Assembly: GCA_902756345.1 (NCBI GenBank)
Contig: CACVQR010000003.1
Location: forward strand, 124,001 to 188,000
Direction: 5' to 3'
DNA length: 64,000 bases
Source: Fibrobacter succinogenes
Lineage (GTDB): Bacteria > Fibrobacterota > Fibrobacteria > Fibrobacterales > Fibrobacteraceae
Within the stretch, counting starts at the first letter, position 1; the number at the start of each line of letters is the position of its first letter. A program made the position numbers and the translations under genes. Under the pieces are notes generated by a model that had not been told where the DNA came from, searched no databases, and was given only the letters and a program-made list of their open reading frames with translations. This document shows positions 12,275 to 59,209 of the stretch, in pieces.

Positions 12275-12341
12275 CTTCCAACTTCCAACTTCCAACTTCC
12301 TACTTCCTACTTCCTACTTCCTACTTCCTACTTCCTACTAC
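12275..12341. repeat. Heptamer tandem repeat (family D arm), TTCCAAC then TTCCTAC units
   Basis: About nine consecutive 7-nt units: three TTCCAAC and then six or so TTCCTAC. The same TTCCTAC arm occurs at 50147-50178 and 52134-52167, each time opposite a GTAGACA/GTAGGAA arm. Here only one arm is present. The U32 gene starts 2 bases after it and has no Shine-Dalgarno. The unit is 7 nt, so a change of copy number would alter frame if this were coding, supporting the start at 12343. Confidence 0.85.
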
Positions 12342-18160: not shown

Positions 18161-18176
18161 GTTAATTGTTTTATGT

Positions 18177-18212
18177 TCTAAATCCGAATTCCGAAATCCG
18201 AATTCTGAATTA
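18177..18212. repeat. GAATTC-rich interspersed repeat (family A) overlapping the slyD stop
   Basis: Alternating AATCCGAATTC / GAATTCTGAATT units. Its last bases supply the TAA stop of slyD (18210-18212 on the plus strand read TTA). Related sequence occurs at 26206-26228, 39917-40055 and 45690-45718, twice more next to stop codons. Confidence 0.75.
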
Positions 18213-26201: not shown

Positions 26202-27812
26202 ATGAAAATTCAGAATTCAGAATTCGGAATGAGGAATGCGAAAGGTGGAATGGTGCTGTGTCATCCTGAGTCCTTCGGCTCCGCTCAGGATAAACTCCGC
26301 GCGAAGCGCGAAGTCGAAGGATCTAGAACTCGAATTTTACTTCCGTTATTAGTTGCAGCTTTTGCTCTTCTCGCGCCTCTTTCCTTTGCGCAGCAGAACT
26401 CCGATATCGATGCTGTAAAGCAGCGCGCCGCATTGAACAGTGCAAAGGCTGATTTGGAAGAAGCGCGCAAAAAGCGCGATATGGCAGTTGCCGCCCGCTG
26501 GAAGGACCGTGAAACCGCCAACCAGGAACGCGAACTCTTTAACGAAAAGTATAATGAAAGCAAAGAAAAAGTCGATGCCCTGATGTCGGAACGTGCGCGC
26601 CTGTTCGAAGACGTGCGCGTTGCCCGCGAAGACTTGGCCCAGGTCAAGCTGCAGGCCGAAAAAGCCCGCGCCGAATACTTGTCGCTTGCTGCTGGTCCCG
26701 AACGCTTGGAAACGCTTGCAAAGTTCAGCGAACAGGGAATCCCGTTCAAGATTGCTGAACGTGTGGAAGTGCAGAACAAGGTGAAAAAGGAAATGGGCCT
26801 GTACAGGGATGACCCTGTGCGTATTGCCCAATCGATCTTGAATGCTGCAAAGAATGAACTTGATTTTACCCGCGAAATCCAGGTAGAAAAGGCGGAACTC
26901 GTTTTTGGAAATGCCGTCGCTCAGGGAGACCGCATGCGCCTGGGAGGCCTCTTTGCCATGCAGATGGCAAATGCAGTTGATATCAACGGGTATCATCCGG
27001 CAGCATTGATGCTCCCGGTAGCCGGCGAAAAGAAGCGTGTTTATAGCTGGCAAGAAAACCTGACTCCCGATACGAAGAGCGACATAAGCAAGGTCTTTGC
27101 TGCGGCAAATGATTCTGCCTACGTGATGGTGCCGGTAGATGTGCTCCTCAGTACCGAGCTTTCATCTGAAATGGCGAACCATCAGGAAACCACCTGGAAA
27201 GACGACTTGAGAGAATTCTTCAAGAATGGTGGTTTGCTGATGTACCCGCTGACAGTGCTCTTTGCGCTGGGCCTCTTGATTGCCTTGTGGCGATTTATAT
27301 GGCTTTCGGTCAAGGGCTTTGGCCGTCTTTCGGCCCGTCGCGTTGTCAATGCATTGAAGGCAGGCGATATCGAAGGTGCCCGTAAACTTTCCGCAAAGAC
27401 GTACGGCGAAGTCGGTCGTGTGCTCAAGACGGTGCTGACCAAGAATTACAAGGACCGCGAAAGTGCAGAACGCGCCCTCGAAGAACTTTTCTCTGCCGAA
27501 GTTCCCAAGCTGGACTTTGGTCTGAATTGGATTTCCGTGTTTGCGGCTGTCGCCCCGTTGCTTGGTCTTTTGGGTACGGTGATGGGTATGATCGAACTCT
27601 TCGACGTGATTACCATGCACGGTACCTCTGACCCGAAACTTTTGGCGGGCGGTATTTCGATTGCCCTTGTCACGACAGAAACGGGCTTAATTGTCGCCAT
27701 TCCCTTGCAGCTGATTCACACGTTCCTGGTGAACCGTTCCGAAGCCTTGCGCGGTCGTATGGAAAAGGCCGGCCTTGCCGTGTTGAATGCCCTTTGGATT
27801 AAGGAAAAGTAG
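26202..27812 (+). CDS. TtpC-like long ExbB/TolQ-family protein with a repeat-derived N-terminal insertion
   Basis: A 536-residue protein. A strong Shine-Dalgarno (AAGGAGGG) precedes the ATG, but residues 3 to about 44 are encoded by interspersed repeats (family A then B). The signal peptide (RILLPLLVAAFALLAPLSFAQ) follows directly, with no in-frame ATG, GTG or TTG between. Then comes a periplasmic coiled coil (about 70-290) and a MotA/TolQ/ExbB domain with three membrane helices (LTVLFALGLLIALWRFIWL; WISVFAAVAPLLGLLGTVMG; ISIALVTTETGLIVAIPLQL). This is the layout of Vibrio TtpC, which is essential for TonB2 function. Confidence 0.88.
   Translation: MKIQNSEFGMRNAKGGMVLCHPESFGSAQDKLRAKREVEGSRTRILLPLLVAAFALLAPLSFAQQNSDIDAVKQRAALNSAKADLEEARKKRDMAVAARWKDRETANQERELFNEKYNESKEKVDALMSERARLFEDVRVAREDLAQVKLQAEKARAEYLSLAAGPERLETLAKFSEQGIPFKIAERVEVQNKVKKEMGLYRDDPVRIAQSILNAAKNELDFTREIQVEKAELVFGNAVAQGDRMRLGGLFAMQMANAVDINGYHPAALMLPVAGEKKRVYSWQENLTPDTKSDISKVFAAANDSAYVMVPVDVLLSTELSSEMANHQETTWKDDLREFFKNGGLLMYPLTVLFALGLLIALWRFIWLSVKGFGRLSARRVVNALKAGDIEGARKLSAKTYGEVGRVLKTVLTKNYKDRESAERALEELFSAEVPKLDFGLNWISVFAAVAPLLGLLGTVMGMIELFDVITMHGTSDPKLLAGGISIALVTTETGLIVAIPLQLIHTFLVNRSEALRGRMEKAGLAVLNALWIKEK
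26206..26324. repeat. Interspersed repeats (families A and B) inside the TtpC-like coding sequence
   Basis: 26206-26228 carries CAGAATTCAGAATTCGGAAT (family A). 26259-26324 starts TGTCATCCTGAG and ends GTCGAAGGATCT (family B), with inner pairings ATCCTGAG / CTCAGGAT and the hairpin CGCGC-GAA-GCGCG at 26298-26310. Related family B copies are at 34789-34878 and 63941-63976. The total insertion keeps the reading frame. Confidence 0.8.
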
Positions 27813-35968: not shown

Positions 35969-35995
35969 CATTCCACATCTCACATTTCACACTTG
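35969..35995. repeat. Family C single arm before hemB
   Basis: CATTCCACATCTCACATTTC then ACACTTG: the right arm of the TGTGAAAT family. It ends 2-3 bases before the hemB ATG, which has no Shine-Dalgarno. Confidence 0.75.
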
Positions 35996-39306: not shown

Positions 39307-39384
39307 ACAGTGTGCGATGTGAAATGTGTGATGTGGAATGATTGATATCTAATTTCACACTTCACATTACACACTTCACATTGT
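39307..39384. repeat. Inverted repeat of TGTGAAAT units (family C)
   Basis: Left arm GTGTGCGATGTGAAATGTG..., right arm TTTCACACTTCACATTACAC..., forming an imperfect long hairpin with an AT loop. A related full copy is at 59141-59209 and a single arm at 35969-35995. Reading through it gives a spurious N-terminal extension to tadA. Confidence 0.8.
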
Positions 39385-39424
39385 GGCGAAGTCACATAAA
39401 CCACAAACCACGAATCACATCAAC

Positions 39425-39919
39425 ATGGATAACACGAACGACGACGAACGTTACATGCGCATGGCGCTTCGCGAGGCGCAAAAGGCTTTCGACGAGAAGG
39501 AAATTCCCATCGGTTGCGTGATTGTGAAAGATGGGGTTGTTATCGGTAAGGGTCACAATCAGATTGAGATGCTCAAGGACGCCACCGCCCATGCAGAAAT
39601 CCTTTCGATTGGAACGGCGGCGAGTCATCTTGAAAACTGGCGTCTGGACGGTTGTACTTTGTATGTAACGCTCGAACCCTGCCCGATGTGCGCCGGTGCC
39701 ATTCTCAACAGCCGAATCAGCCGTGTGGTCTATGGTTCCCCGGATACCCGCTTTGGCGGTTGCGGCACGACTATCGACGTAATCTCGAATAACGCTCTCA
39801 AGCGCGAGGTCGAAGTGGTGGGCGGAGTGCTCGCTGATGAATGTCTAGGCCTTTTGAAGGCTTTTTTCCAGAAAATGCGCCTTGAAAAAGGCGATAGCGG
39901 CAACAAAGGGGAAAATTAA
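39425..39919 (+). CDS. tadA: tRNA-specific adenosine deaminase TadA
   Basis: A 164-residue deaminase converting wobble A34 to inosine in tRNA-Arg. Zinc and catalytic residues: ATAHAEILSI (HAE, about residue 58) and LEPCPMCAGAI (PCxxC, about 86-89). TRFGGCGTTIDV is the TadA-type C-terminal region. The ATG at 39425 is chosen because the in-frame GTG at 39383 lies in a repeat and the extension has no homology to TadA. The stop is inside a family A repeat. Confidence 0.95.
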   Translation: MDNTNDDERYMRMALREAQKAFDEKEIPIGCVIVKDGVVIGKGHNQIEMLKDATAHAEILSIGTAASHLENWRLDGCTLYVTLEPCPMCAGAILNSRISRVVYGSPDTRFGGCGTTIDVISNNALKREVEVVGGVLADECLGLLKAFFQKMRLEKGDSGNKGEN

Positions 39920-40055
39920 TTCAGAATTCAGATTTGTGAATTCGGAATTATTTTAACCCAGAACCTTGTTTTTCGGATTGTTTTGGAACTTGAACTCCAG
40001 ATTCCGAAATCCTAGTTGTTTTAACTCTGAAATCCGAATTCTGAATTCCGAATTA
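39917..40055. repeat. Family A inverted repeat between tadA and the six-gene operon
   Basis: Left arm TTCAGAATTCAG...GAATTCGGAATTA (39919-39952) and right arm CTGAAATCCGAATTCTGAAT...CCGAATTA (40026-40055) enclose about 75 bases with further imperfect units (AGATTCCGAAATCC). It begins in the tadA stop codon and ends 13 bases before the next ATG. Confidence 0.75.
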
Positions 40056-48528: not shown

Positions 48529-49305
48529 ATGGAATCTTATCGAGAGTATTTTCCGACAAAGGCTTTTCGCTTGGCCGAAATGCGACTTGCAACCCTTTTG
48601 AGGGAGGAAAGGGATCGCTTAGATGCCATTGCGGCGTCTATGGGCCGCGAATCTGCGATAGGACCCGATAACTTGCTGCAGGAACTCCCTAAGGTTATGG
48701 AGTTCACCCGCGAATATCACCGGCTTTTTTCGGAGTATTTGGATGCGGTTTTGCCGCAGCAGCCGCGCCCGATCCAGTGTAGGCCCGCTTGCGGAAATTG
48801 CTGCCATCATTACCCCATGTCGGTAGAACCTTTTGAACTGGTGACATTGTATTGCGACCTCCGGGGGCGGAATGACTTGCTCGATATTATGGAGGCGTGC
48901 CAAGTAAGGTCGTCGCTGTTCAGTAAGTTTTTTGAGACGCGCCGCGCCGAGGGGGCGGTGCCTGCCCAAATGGATTTGGACGATTACGCCGAAGACAAGG
49001 CCTTGCACGATTATTTTAGCGCCTGGAATCCGTGCCCGTTTTCGGACAAGAAAGGCGATTGTACGGTGTACCCGCTGCGTCCGGTGTCTTGTCGGATGTA
49101 TTTTAGCGAAACAGACCCGAAGTTTTGCACTCCGGAGCATTTGCAGACGCCCGAAAACGATAGCTACATTGTTTACTTGCCGGATAGCATCGAAGATGCC
49201 GTGTACGGAATCTCGGAACATTATTCGTTGCTGGATTTGCCCGAAAGCTACTTTGGCGGACTCTTGGCCGTGAACCGCTTTGAAGGTCTGATTGGCGAAA
49301 AATGA
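48529..49305 (+). CDS. YkgJ-family cysteine-cluster protein
   Basis: A 258-residue protein with the CxxCxxCC-type zinc/iron cluster motif CRPACGNCCHHYPMSVEPFE (about 84-103) and the second part CPFSDKKGDCTVYPLRPVSC (about 171-190). This pattern defines the YkgJ/UPF0153 family of uncharacterised metal-binding proteins. N-terminal helices (TKAFRLAEMRLATLLREERD) precede the cluster. Its end overlaps the SprT-like gene by four bases, so the two are coupled. Confidence 0.87.
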   Translation: MESYREYFPTKAFRLAEMRLATLLREERDRLDAIAASMGRESAIGPDNLLQELPKVMEFTREYHRLFSEYLDAVLPQQPRPIQCRPACGNCCHHYPMSVEPFELVTLYCDLRGRNDLLDIMEACQVRSSLFSKFFETRRAEGAVPAQMDLDDYAEDKALHDYFSAWNPCPFSDKKGDCTVYPLRPVSCRMYFSETDPKFCTPEHLQTPENDSYIVYLPDSIEDAVYGISEHYSLLDLPESYFGGLLAVNRFEGLIGEK

Positions 49306-50099
49306 ATTTGTTCGGATTGCAACTTGATCTGTTCGGGAACAATACCGATGCTCCCAAGGAACCGGCGAAGCCGAAAGTTCCGGCATCGGTTTCGCAGAAC
49401 GGATTGGTGCATTTCAAGTACAATACGCAACTCAAGAAGAGCATCCGTTGCAAGGGGGGAGTGCTGTTTGGCCACCCCGAAGTGATTTTGCCTGCCTACA
49501 TGAAGGACCCCGAGTTTGCGCCGGCGCGTGAACTTGCCGCCGAATGGGCGGAACACGCTGTAAAACGCAAGACGGCAAAGAACAAGGCGATTATCAAGGA
49601 CTTGGTGAGCCGTTTTTGGACTCTTGTCGAGCAAATTTTGGCTGACCGCGGCGATGAATCCTTGTCGAGCAAGGGAAGGCTTCCGCCTATAAAGCCGCAG
49701 GGCAAGTATCATAACCTGAACGATGTGCTTGCCGCCATCAACAGCACTTATTTTGAAGACAAACTAACTTGCCGTATCACGTGGAGTAATCGCATAGGCG
49801 GGCTCAGCTTCCATTCGGTCCGTCAAGATCCTGTGACCGGCGAAGAATTCCACCTGATTAGCATCAGCAAGGGCTACGATGCCGCCAACTGCCCGGAGTA
49901 TGCCGTGGCCGGTGTGGTGTACCATGAATGCTTGCATATCGCGATTCCTGTTGAAATCAAGAACGGTCGCCGCATTGTGCATGGCCGTAACTTTAGACGT
50001 CGCGAACGCCAGTACATCTATTACGATGAATGGATTCACTGGCACAATCATGTGCTTCCGCTGAATATCCGCAAGATGCGGAGACACGCAGAATTGTAA
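49302..50099 (+). CDS. SprT-like zinc metalloprotease-fold protein
   Basis: A 265-residue protein with HExxH-type zinc motif AGVVYHECLHIAIPVEIKNG (HECLH about residue 207) and a downstream HGRNFRRRERQYIYYDEWIH that fits the third ligand region of SprT/Spartan proteins. The upstream segment NDVLAAINSTYFEDKLTCRI matches the SprT-like opening. The N-terminal ~120 residues are extra. Spartan proteases act on DNA-protein crosslinks; the bacterial function is not settled. Translationally coupled to the YkgJ-like gene. Confidence 0.82.
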   Translation: MNLFGLQLDLFGNNTDAPKEPAKPKVPASVSQNGLVHFKYNTQLKKSIRCKGGVLFGHPEVILPAYMKDPEFAPARELAAEWAEHAVKRKTAKNKAIIKDLVSRFWTLVEQILADRGDESLSSKGRLPPIKPQGKYHNLNDVLAAINSTYFEDKLTCRITWSNRIGGLSFHSVRQDPVTGEEFHLISISKGYDAANCPEYAVAGVVYHECLHIAIPVEIKNGRRIVHGRNFRRRERQYIYYDEWIHWHNHVLPLNIRKMRRHAEL

Positions 50100-50101
50100 T
50101 G

Positions 50102-50178
50102 CAGTAGACGGTAGACAGTAGGCAGTAGACAGTAATTGGCGCTGAGTCCTTCCTACTTCCTACTTCCTACTTCCTACA
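50102..50178. repeat. Complete family D inverted repeat of 7-nt units
   Basis: Left arm of GTAGACG/GTAGACA/GTAGGCA units (50104-50134) and right arm of TTCCTAC units (50149-50177) separated by about 14 bases. The arms pair imperfectly with a 7-nt period (4-5 of every 7 positions). Confidence 0.82.
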
Positions 50179-50184
50179 TTTTTC

Positions 50185-50192
50185 TACATTTG
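50185..50192 (+). promoter_or_regulatory. TAnnTTTG promoter-like element of lysS
   Basis: TACATTTG, 28 bases before the ATG, leaves room for a short leader with the Shine-Dalgarno AAGGA at 50209-50213. This is the best-placed TAnnTTTG element in the window. Confidence 0.5.
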
Positions 50193-50220
50193 TCCTCGTA
50201 AAATTAACAAGGACCAAATT

Positions 50221-51726
50221 ATGGCAATGCAAGATATGAATGACCAGGTTCAGGCTCGCCTCGCGAAGCTTGCGAAGTTCAAGGAAATGGGTGTGGAGGC
50301 TTATCCGCACAAGTTCAACCGTACGCACGATTCCAAGGTTTTGAAAGAAAACAAGGCTGCCCTGATGGCGTCTGGTGAAGAAGTTGCTTTTGCTGGCCGC
50401 GTGGTTCGCTTCAACCGCAAGGGAAAGATGTGCTTTATGCACCTGAAGGACCGTTATGGCCGCTTGCAGGTGGTGGTGGCCCGCGACGAGGTGGGCGAAG
50501 AAAACTACGAAATCGTCAAGATGACCGACCTCGGTGACTTTATCGGCGTAAACGGTTTCATGTTCGAAACCCAGACGGGCGAATACTCCGTGCACGTGAA
50601 GAAGGTGACCATGCTTTCGAAGGCTGTGCGCCCGCTTCCGGTCGCTAAGGAAAAGGTGGACGAAAACGGCAACAAGGTCGTGTTCAACGAATTTGCCGAC
50701 GTGGATACCCGCTATCGCCAGCGTTACATCGACATGGCCTTGAACGATGATGTGAAGGACGTGTTCATCAAGCGTTTCAAGATTCTGCAGGCTATCCGCG
50801 AATACCTCATCGAAAAGGGATTCATCGAAGTCGAAACTCCGACGCTCCAGCCGATTTACGGCGGTGCAAACGCCCGTCCGTTCACCACGCACCACAACGC
50901 TTGCGACATGACTCTGTACCTGCGCGTGGCTCCGGAACTCTACCTCAAGCGCTGCATCGTGGGCGGCATGGAAAAGGTTTTCGAATTCTCCAAGAACTTC
51001 CGTAACGAAGGCATGGACCGCACCCATAGCCCGGAATTCACCGGCCTCGAATTCTACGAAGCCTACGCCGACTACAACGACATGATGGTGCACTTTGAAA
51101 ATATCTACGAACGCGCCTGCATTGCGGCCAACGGCACCACCAAGATTGACTACCAGGGGAAGGAAATCGATTTTAAGGCCCCGTGGCCCCGCTACAGCAT
51201 GATTGAAGCCATTGAAAAGTTCGGCGGTCTCAAGGTCAATGATATGAGCGACGACGAAATCAAGGCCAAGATGGAAGAACTGGGCGGCCACCTGGACGGC
51301 GAATTCAGCCGCGGCCGCGGTATCCTCGAACTGTTCGAGCTCACCGTGGAAGACAAGCTCATCCAGCCGACCTTCATCAAGGACATGCCGACCGAAAGCA
51401 CTCCGCTCTGCAAGAAGCACCGTACCATTGAAGGTCTTATCGAACAGTTCGAGCCGTACGCTAACGGCTGGGAATTGGGCAACGCCTATACCGAACTGAA
51501 CGACCCCATCCGTCAGCGTGAGCTCCTGGAAGACCAGGTGCGCCGCGGCCGCGGTGGCGAAGGCGAAACGCACCCCATGGACGAAAACTTCATGCACGCT
51601 ATCGAATCTGGCCTGCCTCCTACCGGTGGCGTGGGATTCGGCATCGACCGCATGGTCATGCTCCTCACCAACCAGCAGACCATCCGCGACGTGCAGCTCT
51701 TCCCGCTGATGAAGCCCGAAGCGTAG
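50221..51726 (+). CDS. lysS: Lysyl-tRNA synthetase (class II)
   Basis: A 501-residue class II LysRS. The OB-fold anticodon domain (EVAFAGRVVRFNRKGKMCFM, LKDRYGRLQVVV) is followed by motif 1 (FIEVETPTLQPIYGGANARP), motif 2 (KNFRNEGMDRTHSPEFTGLE) and motif 3 (GVGFGIDRMVMLLTNQQTIR). Length is standard. Starts at ATG 50221 with AAGGA upstream. Charges tRNA-Lys in the cytosol. Confidence 0.97.
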   Translation: MAMQDMNDQVQARLAKLAKFKEMGVEAYPHKFNRTHDSKVLKENKAALMASGEEVAFAGRVVRFNRKGKMCFMHLKDRYGRLQVVVARDEVGEENYEIVKMTDLGDFIGVNGFMFETQTGEYSVHVKKVTMLSKAVRPLPVAKEKVDENGNKVVFNEFADVDTRYRQRYIDMALNDDVKDVFIKRFKILQAIREYLIEKGFIEVETPTLQPIYGGANARPFTTHHNACDMTLYLRVAPELYLKRCIVGGMEKVFEFSKNFRNEGMDRTHSPEFTGLEFYEAYADYNDMMVHFENIYERACIAANGTTKIDYQGKEIDFKAPWPRYSMIEAIEKFGGLKVNDMSDDEIKAKMEELGGHLDGEFSRGRGILELFELTVEDKLIQPTFIKDMPTESTPLCKKHRTIEGLIEQFEPYANGWELGNAYTELNDPIRQRELLEDQVRRGRGGEGETHPMDENFMHAIESGLPPTGGVGFGIDRMVMLLTNQQTIRDVQLFPLMKPEA

Positions 51727-51730
51727 CTTC

Positions 51731-51763
51731 ACGGTAGACAGTAGACGGTAGGAAGTAGACAGT
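51731..51763. repeat. Left family D arm flanking the four-helix-bundle gene
   Basis: GGTAGACAGTAGACGGTAGG then AAGTAGACAGT: 7-nt GTAGACA/GTAGGAA units. It pairs with the TTCCTAC arm at 52134-52167, so the gene at 51762-52130 sits in the loop. The GTG start of the gene is at the end of this arm. Confidence 0.8.
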
Positions 51764-52130
51764 GACTCAAGGATATAGAGACTTGGTTGTCTGGCAACAA
51801 GCGATGAATGTTGCTGTTGAGACTTATCGTCTTACAAGTGCATTTCCTAAAGATGAAATGTTTGGCTTGACATCTCAAATGCGACGTGCGGCTGTATCTA
51901 TTGCGAGTAATATTGCAGAAGGTGAAGGTCGTAAATCAAGAAATGAGTTTTCGCATTTTTTAGGGATTGCACTTGGTTCTAAATCGGAATTAGAAACGCA
52001 AATTGTTTTGAGTGAACGTGTGAACCTATTGAAGACTTCTGAGACAGAATCGATAAAAAAGTCTCTTGATGATATTGGGAAAATGTTAACCGCTTTAAGG
52101 AGAAAATTGGGTACAAGGGATAAGACGTAG
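51762..52130 (+). CDS. Four-helix-bundle protein of the 23S rRNA intervening-sequence (S23) family
   Basis: A 122-residue protein with the family signature: GYRDLVVWQQAMNVAVETYR at the N-terminus, FPKDEMFGLTSQMRRAAVSI, SNIAEGEGRKSRNEFSHFLG, and SELETQIVLSERVNLL. Founding members are encoded in intervening sequences of 23S rRNA genes; relatives include Avd of diversity-generating retroelements. Its codons are more AT-rich than those of lysS and lolE around it, and it lies in the loop of an inverted repeat, both suggesting transfer with that element. GTG start; no Shine-Dalgarno. Function unknown. Confidence 0.9.
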   Translation: MTQGYRDLVVWQQAMNVAVETYRLTSAFPKDEMFGLTSQMRRAAVSIASNIAEGEGRKSRNEFSHFLGIALGSKSELETQIVLSERVNLLKTSETESIKKSLDDIGKMLTALRRKLGTRDKT

Positions 52131-52133
52131 GGC

Positions 52134-52167
52134 CTTCCTACTTCCTACTTCCTACTTCCTACTTCCT
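52134..52167. repeat. Right family D arm, abutting the lolE-like start codon
   Basis: Four to five TTCCTAC units, complementary to the left arm at 51731-51763. The ATG of the next gene is the next base triplet, with no Shine-Dalgarno. Confidence 0.82.
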
Positions 52168-53415
52168 ATGAATAAACTTGAGTGGCTCATCGCCTGGCGT
52201 TACTTAGGGGCTCAACGTAAGAGTCTCTTTGTCTCGCTGATTGGCATTTTCAGTATGTTAGGCGTTTCTATCGGCGTGTTTGCGTTGGTGGTGGCGCTTG
52301 CTGCGGTCAACGGCTTCGAAGAAGAAGTCACGGCCCAGATGATTGGTAAAGACGCACACTTCGAAGTGATGGCTTACAACGGCGATTTCATTGCGCCTTA
52401 CGATAGCCTTATGAAAGAAGTCCGCGACCGCGATTCCCGCGTGGTGGCGTCGTCTCCGTTCATCATTTACAAGGTGGGCGTGAGCTCCAAGAAGGTGAAT
52501 GACGGCATTGTCATTTACGGTATCGATGCTGAAAGCGCCAAGGGCGTAACCGACATCCACAAGTACATCAAGTGGGGCAACTACTCGGTCGATAGCCTCG
52601 AAGACTTGAGCGGGACCATGCGTCCGGGAATCATTCTCGGTTCGGGGCTTGCCAATAGGCTTCGTGTGGTAGTTGGCGACAAGCTTGTGCTGCAGACCTT
52701 CCAGAGTCCTGACGCCATGGTGTCGAGCGGAGGCCCGAAAATGATGATGTGCGTGGTGAGCGGAATCTTCGAGACGGGTACTTATGAATACGACGGAAAC
52801 CTCGCTTACGTGGGCATCCCGGAATTGCAGAAGTTGCTTGGCTTGGGTGACGTGGTGACGGGCATTCAGTTCCGCTTGAACAATCACTGGCTTGCCGGAG
52901 AGGCGGTGGATAGCCTTGCGTCATGGTTAGGTTATCCGTATTACGCGATGGACTGGAAGACGAAAAACATTACGCTCCTCAAGTGGATGAACTACGAAAA
53001 GTTCATCGTGGCGGCGGTGATTTGCCTCATCATTTTGGTTGCGGCGTTCAATATCATCAGTAGCCTTATCATGGTGGTCATCGACAAGACCAAAGAAATC
53101 GGCATTCTCCGCAGCATGGGCTTTAGCAAGGCGGGCATCATGCGCGTCTTTATGCTCATGGGCAGCTTCATTGGCGTGGGTGGTACGATTGTCGGTGGCA
53201 CCATTGGCCTTGTGCTTTGCAAACTGCAAGAGGCTTACCACTTTATCAAGCTCCCCGGCGATGTCTACGTGATTCCGTACTTCCCGATTTCGGTGCACAT
53301 TCTTGATGTGATTTTGATTTTTGTCATCGGCATTGCACTTTGCGTGGCTGCAACCTTGCTCCCCGCATGGAAGGCAAGCCGCTTGGATCCGGTGGGAGCC
53401 ATTAGACATGAGTAG
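52168..53415 (+). CDS. LolC/LolE-family lipoprotein-releasing ABC transporter permease
   Basis: A 415-residue permease with four membrane helices: ISLIGIFSMLGVSIGVFALV-type near residue 25-45, a large periplasmic domain, FIVAAVICLIILVAAFNIIS (about 273), FMLMGSFIGVGGTIVGGTIG (about 325) and ILDVILIFVIGIALCVAATL (about 378). It begins EWLIAWRYLGAQRKSLFVSL and ends with ASRLDPVGAIRHE, both family marks. It extracts lipoproteins from the inner membrane with LolD. The ATPase partner lies 2.5 kb downstream at 55909, separated by other genes. Confidence 0.9.
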   Translation: MNKLEWLIAWRYLGAQRKSLFVSLIGIFSMLGVSIGVFALVVALAAVNGFEEEVTAQMIGKDAHFEVMAYNGDFIAPYDSLMKEVRDRDSRVVASSPFIIYKVGVSSKKVNDGIVIYGIDAESAKGVTDIHKYIKWGNYSVDSLEDLSGTMRPGIILGSGLANRLRVVVGDKLVLQTFQSPDAMVSSGGPKMMMCVVSGIFETGTYEYDGNLAYVGIPELQKLLGLGDVVTGIQFRLNNHWLAGEAVDSLASWLGYPYYAMDWKTKNITLLKWMNYEKFIVAAVICLIILVAAFNIISSLIMVVIDKTKEIGILRSMGFSKAGIMRVFMLMGSFIGVGGTIVGGTIGLVLCKLQEAYHFIKLPGDVYVIPYFPISVHILDVILIFVIGIALCVAATLLPAWKASRLDPVGAIRHE

Positions 53416-53421
53416 GGTGGT

Positions 53422-54438
53422 ATGAAAAAAATCAAGATGTTGCGAGGCTGCGTAGCAACCGCAGCAGTCTTTAGTTTTCTTTTTCTTGCCGCATGCGATG
53501 GCGACAGCAGTACGTCTTCTGACGACTTTTCGGATTCTTCCTCCAGCGTCATTCCAGGCATCGACCCGGAATCTAGCAGCGGTTCTGCACAATCCAGTAG
53601 CAGTAAAGACGAGTTGAAATCTTCTTCAAGTGGCAAGGATGAGTCATCTTCCTCTTCTCGTCATTCCCCGCTTGACGGGGAATCTTCCAGTAGTAGCATT
53701 GGAGAGGTTGTCTCTAGCAGTTCATCTGTTGAACAGAACTGCTCAGCATTTTTAGATGGTGAGACTGGCTGGAGTTGGAATGTTCCCAAAGAATGTCGCT
53801 TTAATCCTGATATTGACTACGGCACCATGACCGACCCCCGCGACAACAAGGTCTACAAGACCATAAAGATTGGAGACCAGGTTTGGATGGCGGAAAACTT
53901 GAACTATTCCGACAGCGTGAAGACTCCGATCCTGTTGAAGCGCTGCTGGTGCTACAATAATAGAACTGAAAACTGTGCCGTGGCCGGTCGCTTTTACACC
54001 TGGGTGGCGGCGATTGACTCGGTTGCTTTGTATGACGGTGGCAACGGTGTGGACTGTGGTTACGGCAAGACCTGCACGCTCCCGACAAAGGTGCAGGGCA
54101 TTTGCCCCGATGGCTGGCATCTGCCGACAGAAGCAGAATGGGAATCTTTGTTCAAAGCAGTCGGTGGTTCATCAACCGCGGGCTCAAAGCTCAAGTCCAC
54201 GTCCGGATGGAATGGTGGTAACGGCAAGGATGCTTTCGGGTTCTCGGCGCTCCCTACTGGCTACAGGGGCTACTATGGGGATTACAGCTTCGAGGGCGGC
54301 GGCGCGTACTTCTGGAGTTCTACTGAGATCGATAGCGGCAACGCGAACAGCATGCCTTTGCGCTACGACGAAGGCAGTGCGGGCCTGAGCACCGCCAATA
54401 AGGACTTCGCGCGTTCAGTTCGTTGTCTCCAGGACTAG
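53422..54438 (+). CDS. FISUMP-domain lipoprotein (Fibrobacter major paralogous domain)
   Basis: A 338-residue lipoprotein: lipobox FLAAC (VFSFLFLAACDGDSS), a Ser-rich linker to about residue 110 with repeated SSSS blocks, then the FISUMP domain (TIGR02145 type). The domain shows YKTIKIGDQVWMAENLNY, RFYTWVAAIDSVALYDGG, GICPDGWHLPTEAEWESLFK, FGFSALPTGYRG, YFWSSTE and ARSVRCLQD. The family is expanded in Fibrobacter and is probably surface-exposed; the fold is related to formylglycine-generating-enzyme/C-type-lectin-like domains. Starts 6 bases after the lolE-like stop. Confidence 0.93.
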   Translation: MKKIKMLRGCVATAAVFSFLFLAACDGDSSTSSDDFSDSSSSVIPGIDPESSSGSAQSSSSKDELKSSSSGKDESSSSSRHSPLDGESSSSSIGEVVSSSSSVEQNCSAFLDGETGWSWNVPKECRFNPDIDYGTMTDPRDNKVYKTIKIGDQVWMAENLNYSDSVKTPILLKRCWCYNNRTENCAVAGRFYTWVAAIDSVALYDGGNGVDCGYGKTCTLPTKVQGICPDGWHLPTEAEWESLFKAVGGSSTAGSKLKSTSGWNGGNGKDAFGFSALPTGYRGYYGDYSFEGGGAYFWSSTEIDSGNANSMPLRYDEGSAGLSTANKDFARSVRCLQD

Positions 54439-59140: not shown

Positions 59141-59209
59141 CAATGTGAAATGTGAAGTGTGAAATGTGTAATGATTAATTTCTCATTCCACATCACACAT
59201 TACACATTT
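59141..59209. repeat. Complete family C inverted repeat between clpC and adk
   Basis: Left arm AATGTGAAATGTGAAGTGTG..., right arm TCATTCCACATCACACATTA..., separated by an AT-rich loop. It resembles 39307-39384. In-frame codons across it are why a long N-terminal extension of adk is open. Confidence 0.82.

Follow-up and report, generated by a model that had tools for sequence, protein, structure and literature searches.

A probable mobile element in Fibrobacter succinogenes: an S23 gene between inverted heptamer arrays, akin to rRNA intervening sequences

How does a gene of the S23 family, whose members carry no annotation beyond 'four helix bundle protein', come to fill the space between two protein-coding genes of Fibrobacter succinogenes? 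In the window, the 64,000-nt stretch of DNA analysed here, the gap from the stop codon of lysS (50221-51726) to the start of an ftsX-like permease gene (52168-53415) is occupied by such a gene and its arms. The original prediction, made from the letters of this DNA, placed the S23 gene between a GTAGACA-type arm and a TTCCTAC arm, and this arrangement was recovered, each arm being a tandem array of heptamers:

51724-51726, + strand: stop codon of lysS, the left border of the insertion site
51734-51761, + strand: 5' arm, four tandem heptamers (GTAGACA GTAGACG GTAGGAA GTAGACA), starting 7 nt past the lysS stop
51762-52130, + strand: S23 (four-helix-bundle) gene, 122 aa, with a GTG start (51762) that abuts the 5' arm
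52134-52168, + strand: 3' arm, five tandem copies of TTCCTA(C), the reverse complement of GTAGGAA, with five in-phase CT (=AG) cores
52168-52170, + strand: start codon of the ftsX-like permease gene, the right border of the insertion site

The 3' arm reaches into the next gene, its last A being the A of the ftsX-like ATG (52168). The AT-rich composition ascribed to the S23 gene also held up, with a GC content of 0.39 (GC3 0.29) vs 0.56 (0.75) in lysS and 0.52 (0.69) in the ftsX-like gene. The protein matches PF05635 (E=3.5e-39, 133.7 bits, curated cut-off 33.8) and TIGR02436 (E=1.6e-37, 128 bits, curated cut-off 24), and a Pfam scan returned PF05635 and bAvd only, with no Y1 HUH transposase domain.

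Heptamer arms around S23 genes

Are such arms a peculiarity of this locus, or a common accompaniment of genes in general? Each of the three S23 genes in this genome is bounded on both sides by inverted heptamer arrays, with different heptamers in each case (AGACAGT/AGGAAGT, AGTTTTG/AGTTGTC and AGAACTT/AGTTGGT). The flanks of 152 S23 genes, drawn from Fibrobacter and more than 20 phyla, were examined for their best repeat lag, which was 7 or 14 on the 5' side in 87% and on the 3' side in 83%, vs 9% of 494 control segments taken at least 400 nt away at the same loci; the arms are thus not equally common beside any gene, although arrays lacking S23 are widespread in intergenic DNA. S23 genes are present in 40 of the 61 genus genomes, with none detected in the other 21, some of which are draft assemblies, and a scan of 84,980 species genomes gave 80 S23 loci spanning more than 20 phyla. 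The two arms of one locus match each other as reverse complements (score at least 10) in 92% of the phyla loci and 94% of the genus loci, vs 13-15% for mismatched pairs made up from different loci and 12-14% for arms compared in direct orientation. Above threshold, 41 of 151 loci show one arm only and five of 151 show none. The pattern extends to a class sample of cyanobacteria, in which lag 7 or 14 was found in 18 of 29 5' flanks and 23 of 29 3' flanks, and to the flanks of S23 genes on cyanobacterial plasmids. Plasmid carriage itself was seen in 24 of 72,556 records, mostly from cyanobacteria, and no S23 match was found in 50,697 phage records. One S23 gene (L280), carried by plasmid AZO_p2 of Azospirillum lipoferum, is located within a 23S rRNA gene (Rfam RF02541), and its arms are again heptamers, GAGGACG GATGACA GAGGACG GAGGACA with a matching 3' arm.

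In 77% of other-phyla arms, at least three quarters (75%) of the units carry AG at the same phase, a higher share than for any other dinucleotide, GT being the next (62%). Unit number peaks at four to five, both in S23 arms and in dispersed arrays, and the number of AG cores per arm has its mode at five, which is the count in 34 of 49 genus and 19 of 42 other-phyla 3' arms, and in 20 of 40 and 10 of 43 5' arms, respectively; the window element has five cores in its 3' arm and four in its 5' arm. In arms of the ATTGATG/AATTCGG families the AG core is absent from most units. The 5' arm is C-poor, and G exceeds C in 40 of 49 phyla arms. S23 identity is correlated with heptamer similarity (Mantel p=0.001). 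A minority of loci have arms with a period of 8 (L145, L150, L174, L201, L205 and L206) or 9 (L155); repeat period was considered as a trait of S23 clades and rejected, there being no clustering on the S23 tree (10 changes vs a shuffled mean of 10.5). Separately, many 5' arms at the lysS|ftsX site (e.g. L058, L059, L105 and L128) have a small GC-rich hairpin in or beside them (ACGCCGCTTCGCGGC, GGCGAAGCC), the sides of which vary between strains with pairing retained.

Filled and empty sites, with and without the gene

The original prediction took the locus for a mobile element of the intervening sequence (IVS) type that lives between protein genes, and called for a comparison of strains for filled and empty sites. 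Among 30 relatives, lysS|ftsX is filled in 15 and empty without a scar in 15, with about 3-8 nt from the lysS stop to the ftsX-like ATG in the empty alleles, and filled and empty alleles are interleaved by relatedness. The filled alleles hold three S23 subfamilies and several heptamers, and both arms switch together, being of the GTAGACA type vs the AGTGGTT type. Across the genus, 72 S23 genes fall at 15 sites, the largest of which (26, 13 and 11 genes) have two to three S23 subfamilies each, with their own heptamers; single subfamilies, in turn, recur at several different sites. The S23 gene and its two arms are one unit: gain, loss and replacement at particular intergenic sites involve all three parts together. 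A site with both filled and empty alleles, and the same element present at several sites, are the mark of mobile DNA. No target-site duplication was definable in the strain pairs compared, in which many differing sites are replacements, not clean insertions.

An 'empty' version of the element had also been predicted upstream of lysS. It is there, and belongs to a larger population of gene-less arrays, of which two examples are listed here:

50104-50134, + strand: 5' arm of an S23-less copy upstream of lysS (GTAGACG GTAGACA GTAGGCA GTAGACA GTA)
50149-50177, + strand: 3' arm of the same copy, with a 14-nt loop between the arms
12275-12339, - strand: dispersed single array of the window family (GTAGGAA/GTTGGAA), differing in unit number from its orthologue in the relative G030

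At the site of the first copy (50104-50177), the relative G057 has an AATTCGG-type inverted pair instead of GTAGACA. With two or fewer mismatches, CTTCCTACTTCCTA occurs 16 times in the window vs 0.25 expected, and there are 86 exact copies of the dimer TTCCTACTTCCTAC in the genome, with none of its backwards control. An unbiased array scan covered contigs C1 and C3 (635 kb); contig C1 and the window together hold 34 lag-7 arrays vs 0-1 in shuffles, mostly between genes. Where the C3 array sites could be mapped to G030, the array is kept at 10 and not at six, and the reverse direction also gives 10 and six, several of the 'empty' calls vs G030 being replaced or unaligned segments and not clean empty sites. 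Some orthologous sites between close relatives hold another heptamer family. In 1.23 Mb of three genomes, the only gene enclosed by facing arrays of the same family is S23 (382-394 nt), the enclosed stretch being otherwise 5-97 nt, and no diverging pair is closer than 157 nt. Whether in inverted pairs or single, S23-less arrays of these heptamers are intergenic, scattered and polymorphic between close relatives.

Other heptamer families are present in the window as well. AATTCGG/AATTCAG arrays lie at 18167-18211, 26207-26238, 39918-39949 and 40023-40054, and their S23 partners in the genus belong to a distant subfamily, S0, that is absent from this genome. AATGTGA arrays lie at 35974-35994, 39354-39418 and 59142-59208, with cognate S23 genes (L091, L092 and L100) in other genomes. 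Arrays of arrays in genome G000, at C1:135061-135203 (L219) and C1:353122-353261 (L230), consist of blocks repeated in tandem, each with about five heptamers (34-37 nt), and look as if one arm were the inserting unit.

The abundance of gene-less arrays is associated with the presence of the cognate gene. Exact TTCCTAC dimers have a median of 64 (37-137) in the eight genomes with a cognate S23 vs 1 in those without (p=2e-6), TCTCGTC dimers 34.5 vs 7 (p=5e-4) and CTAACCA dimers 25 vs 2 (p=1.3e-3); these p values are optimistic, the genomes being related and some incomplete, and cognate types were assigned by eye from the S23 flanks. Some genomes are rich in arrays with no cognate S23 in the assembly (TTCCTAC, 42 and 40 dimers; TCTCGTC, 184 and 67).

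Could the arrays instead be binding sites of a post-transcriptional regulon, in which S23 binds mRNA heptamers near stop and start codons and tunes translation, their spread being incidental? Arrays do lie between genes, the 3' arm in the window does enter a start codon, and the S23 genes of the genus show strong purifying selection (median dN/dS 0.068 over 10 pairs); for TAACTGA repeats ending about 1 nt ahead of start codons, a role in translational regulation was proposed by MacGregor (PMC4679880). However, array sites, and even the heptamer at one site, vary between close relatives, S23 is undetected in those 21 of 61 genus genomes, some of them drafts, and no conserved target gene was seen, all of which makes a regulon unlikely. 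Less probable again is that the arrays are ordinary simple repeats born of slippage, into which S23 genes recombine through homology of the arms. Unit number does differ between G030 and this genome (C3:111679 and 136274) and between Coxiella strains (PMC4990558), but slippage is disfavoured because it predicts neither the inverted rather than direct orientation of the arms nor the sharp mode at four to five units, the swapping of heptamers on both sides together or the link with cognate S23.

A mobile element akin to rRNA IVSs, living between protein genes and having its S23 gene enclosed by two inverted arrays of four to five heptamers, is rather likely to be the right description of the locus. 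The original prediction to this effect is well supported by scarless empty and filled alleles and by the shuffling of subfamilies among sites, with further support from polymorphic S23-less copies and from heptamer arms around S23 within 23S rRNA.

How S23 might act on its arms

What, then, would the protein do? Given the association between a cognate S23 gene and the highest numbers of gene-less copies, S23 probably works in trans on these non-autonomous, REP-like copies, much as RAYT transposases do on REPs. Among the residues of S23, R41, R42, N50, E53 and R57 are conserved. The solved S23 structures 2GSC (Xanthomonas XCC0516) and 2RLD have five chains each. Since the commonest number of AG cores is five and the solved relatives have five chains, an S23 pentamer probably binds one arm, with one AGnnnnn unit per subunit. 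Units seven bases apart fit poorly on one face of B-DNA, so the putative ligand would more likely be a single strand, wound around the ring by analogy with TRAP on its (G/U)AG repeats. The suggestion in the original prediction that S23 binds the stem RNA or helps the element to move would fit the agreement of five in-phase AG cores per arm with a five-chain protein, and the many dispersed arrays that accompany cognate S23 genes. Insertion between a stop codon and the next start leaves both genes intact.

A different emphasis would put all the weight on the RNA, with the arms as a spacer stem cut by RNase III, as in rRNA IVSs, and the S23 protein dispensable. The whole window element is predicted to fold (MFE -132.8 kcal/mol, z -4.0) with arms able to pair; in Coxiella the IVS stem is cut by RNase III and the authors think the IVS RNA more important than its protein (PMC4990558). 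This is quite improbable here, given the low dN/dS of S23 and arm differences that are mostly not wobble-compatible: selection for pairing in the sense RNA was considered and not supported, with 85 wobble-compatible transitions vs 134 that are not and, in the other-phyla set, 38 vs 60. That S23 is instead the Avd partner of a reverse transcriptase, the element being a retroelement or part of a diversity-generating retroelement, is very improbable indeed, for although Avd is a distant homologue and the window protein shows weak similarity to bAvd (PF22296, E=6.5e-7, 30.3 bits, under the curated cut-off of 40) and to the DGR Avd profile (32.9 bits, under the cut-off of 80), no reverse-transcriptase ORF was seen beside the gene, this genome gives no RVT_1 (PF00078) match, and matches are confined to 16 of the 61 genus genomes.

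Returning to an S23 pentamer on its arms, a reverse transcriptase appears, from the gene content of this genome, not to be needed here. Because S23 has no recognised catalytic domain and the genome no RVT_1 match, the likeliest partner for cutting, copying and joining would be a host enzyme.

Comparison with known systems

The rRNA IVSs with S23 ORFs (Coxiella, Leptospira and Azospirillum) have their protein family in common with the window element, and both carry the ORF in a loop closed by inverted arms at the ends. Such IVSs are cut out of the transcript by RNase III, and the ends are not religated. The Coxiella IVS has three to four tandem GACAGAT heptamers, variable in number between strains, ahead of its S23 ORF (PMC4990558). 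Unlike these IVSs, the window element lies between protein genes, with no Rfam match within 49000-54000, and is accompanied by many S23-less arrays at other places in the genome. Of the IVS features testable here, location in rRNA is the only one that it lacks, and intergenic elements and S23-bearing IVSs have, judged by their sequences, an anatomy in common.

The REP/RAYT system has one gene for a Y1 transposase between short inverted repeats, a single hairpin as its repeat and dispersed non-autonomous copies. The resemblance of the window element to such a REPtron lies in the single gene between short inverted repeats, the many dispersed, intergenic, non-autonomous copies and the GTAG carried by its GTAGACA-type heptamer family; the difference lies in an S23 protein without a Y1 transposase domain and in tandem heptamers in place of one hairpin. 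TRAP, with 11 subunits for 11 (G/U)AG repeats (PMC4027176), offers an analogy only: it is likewise a ring protein with tandem AG repeats equal in number to its subunits, but it is unrelated to S23, for which binding is putative.

Orphan heptamers have been described as TAACTGA in Beggiatoaceae (PMC4679880) and as GGGAATC in Xanthomonas and GGGGAYT in Nostoc (PMC4692102). Like the arrays reported here, they are dispersed and intergenic and occur singly or as inverted pairs, and the Xanthomonas GGGAATC arrays most often have four units; text searches of both papers found no mention of S23. Nearly all GGGGAYT dimers in 116 cyanobacterial genomes belong to four, of which one has an S23 pseudogene (L310) flanked by GGGGACT-like sequence and another has no S23 match, so that the link between Nostoc GGGGAYT and S23 is suggestive only. 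In the cyanobacterial class sample, G149 has 173 GGGGAYT dimers and no S23 match in its assembly.

Both the IVSs that carry S23 ORFs and the orphan heptamers have been published before; what may be new is one element class behind both, and no paper joining heptamer repeats with intergenic S23 genes was found in the open-access literature. In its widest form, which we put forward tentatively and rate at slightly less than an even chance, the proposal is of a class spread across more than 20 phyla, in which a pentameric S23 ring would recognise five-heptamer arms and mobilise its own gene and hundreds of gene-less arrays through a host enzyme, rRNA IVSs and orphan heptamer repeats being its products. 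The anatomy leads to a precise hypothesis about binding, in which each pentamer takes one arm and cognate pairs serve as internal controls, and Fibrobacter strain pairs allow a direct look for mobility. The origin of rRNA IVSs and the over-representation of heptamers in bacteria are puzzles decades old that may be one system, joined by a common anatomy of S23 gene, inverted heptamer arms, five cores and gene-less copies.
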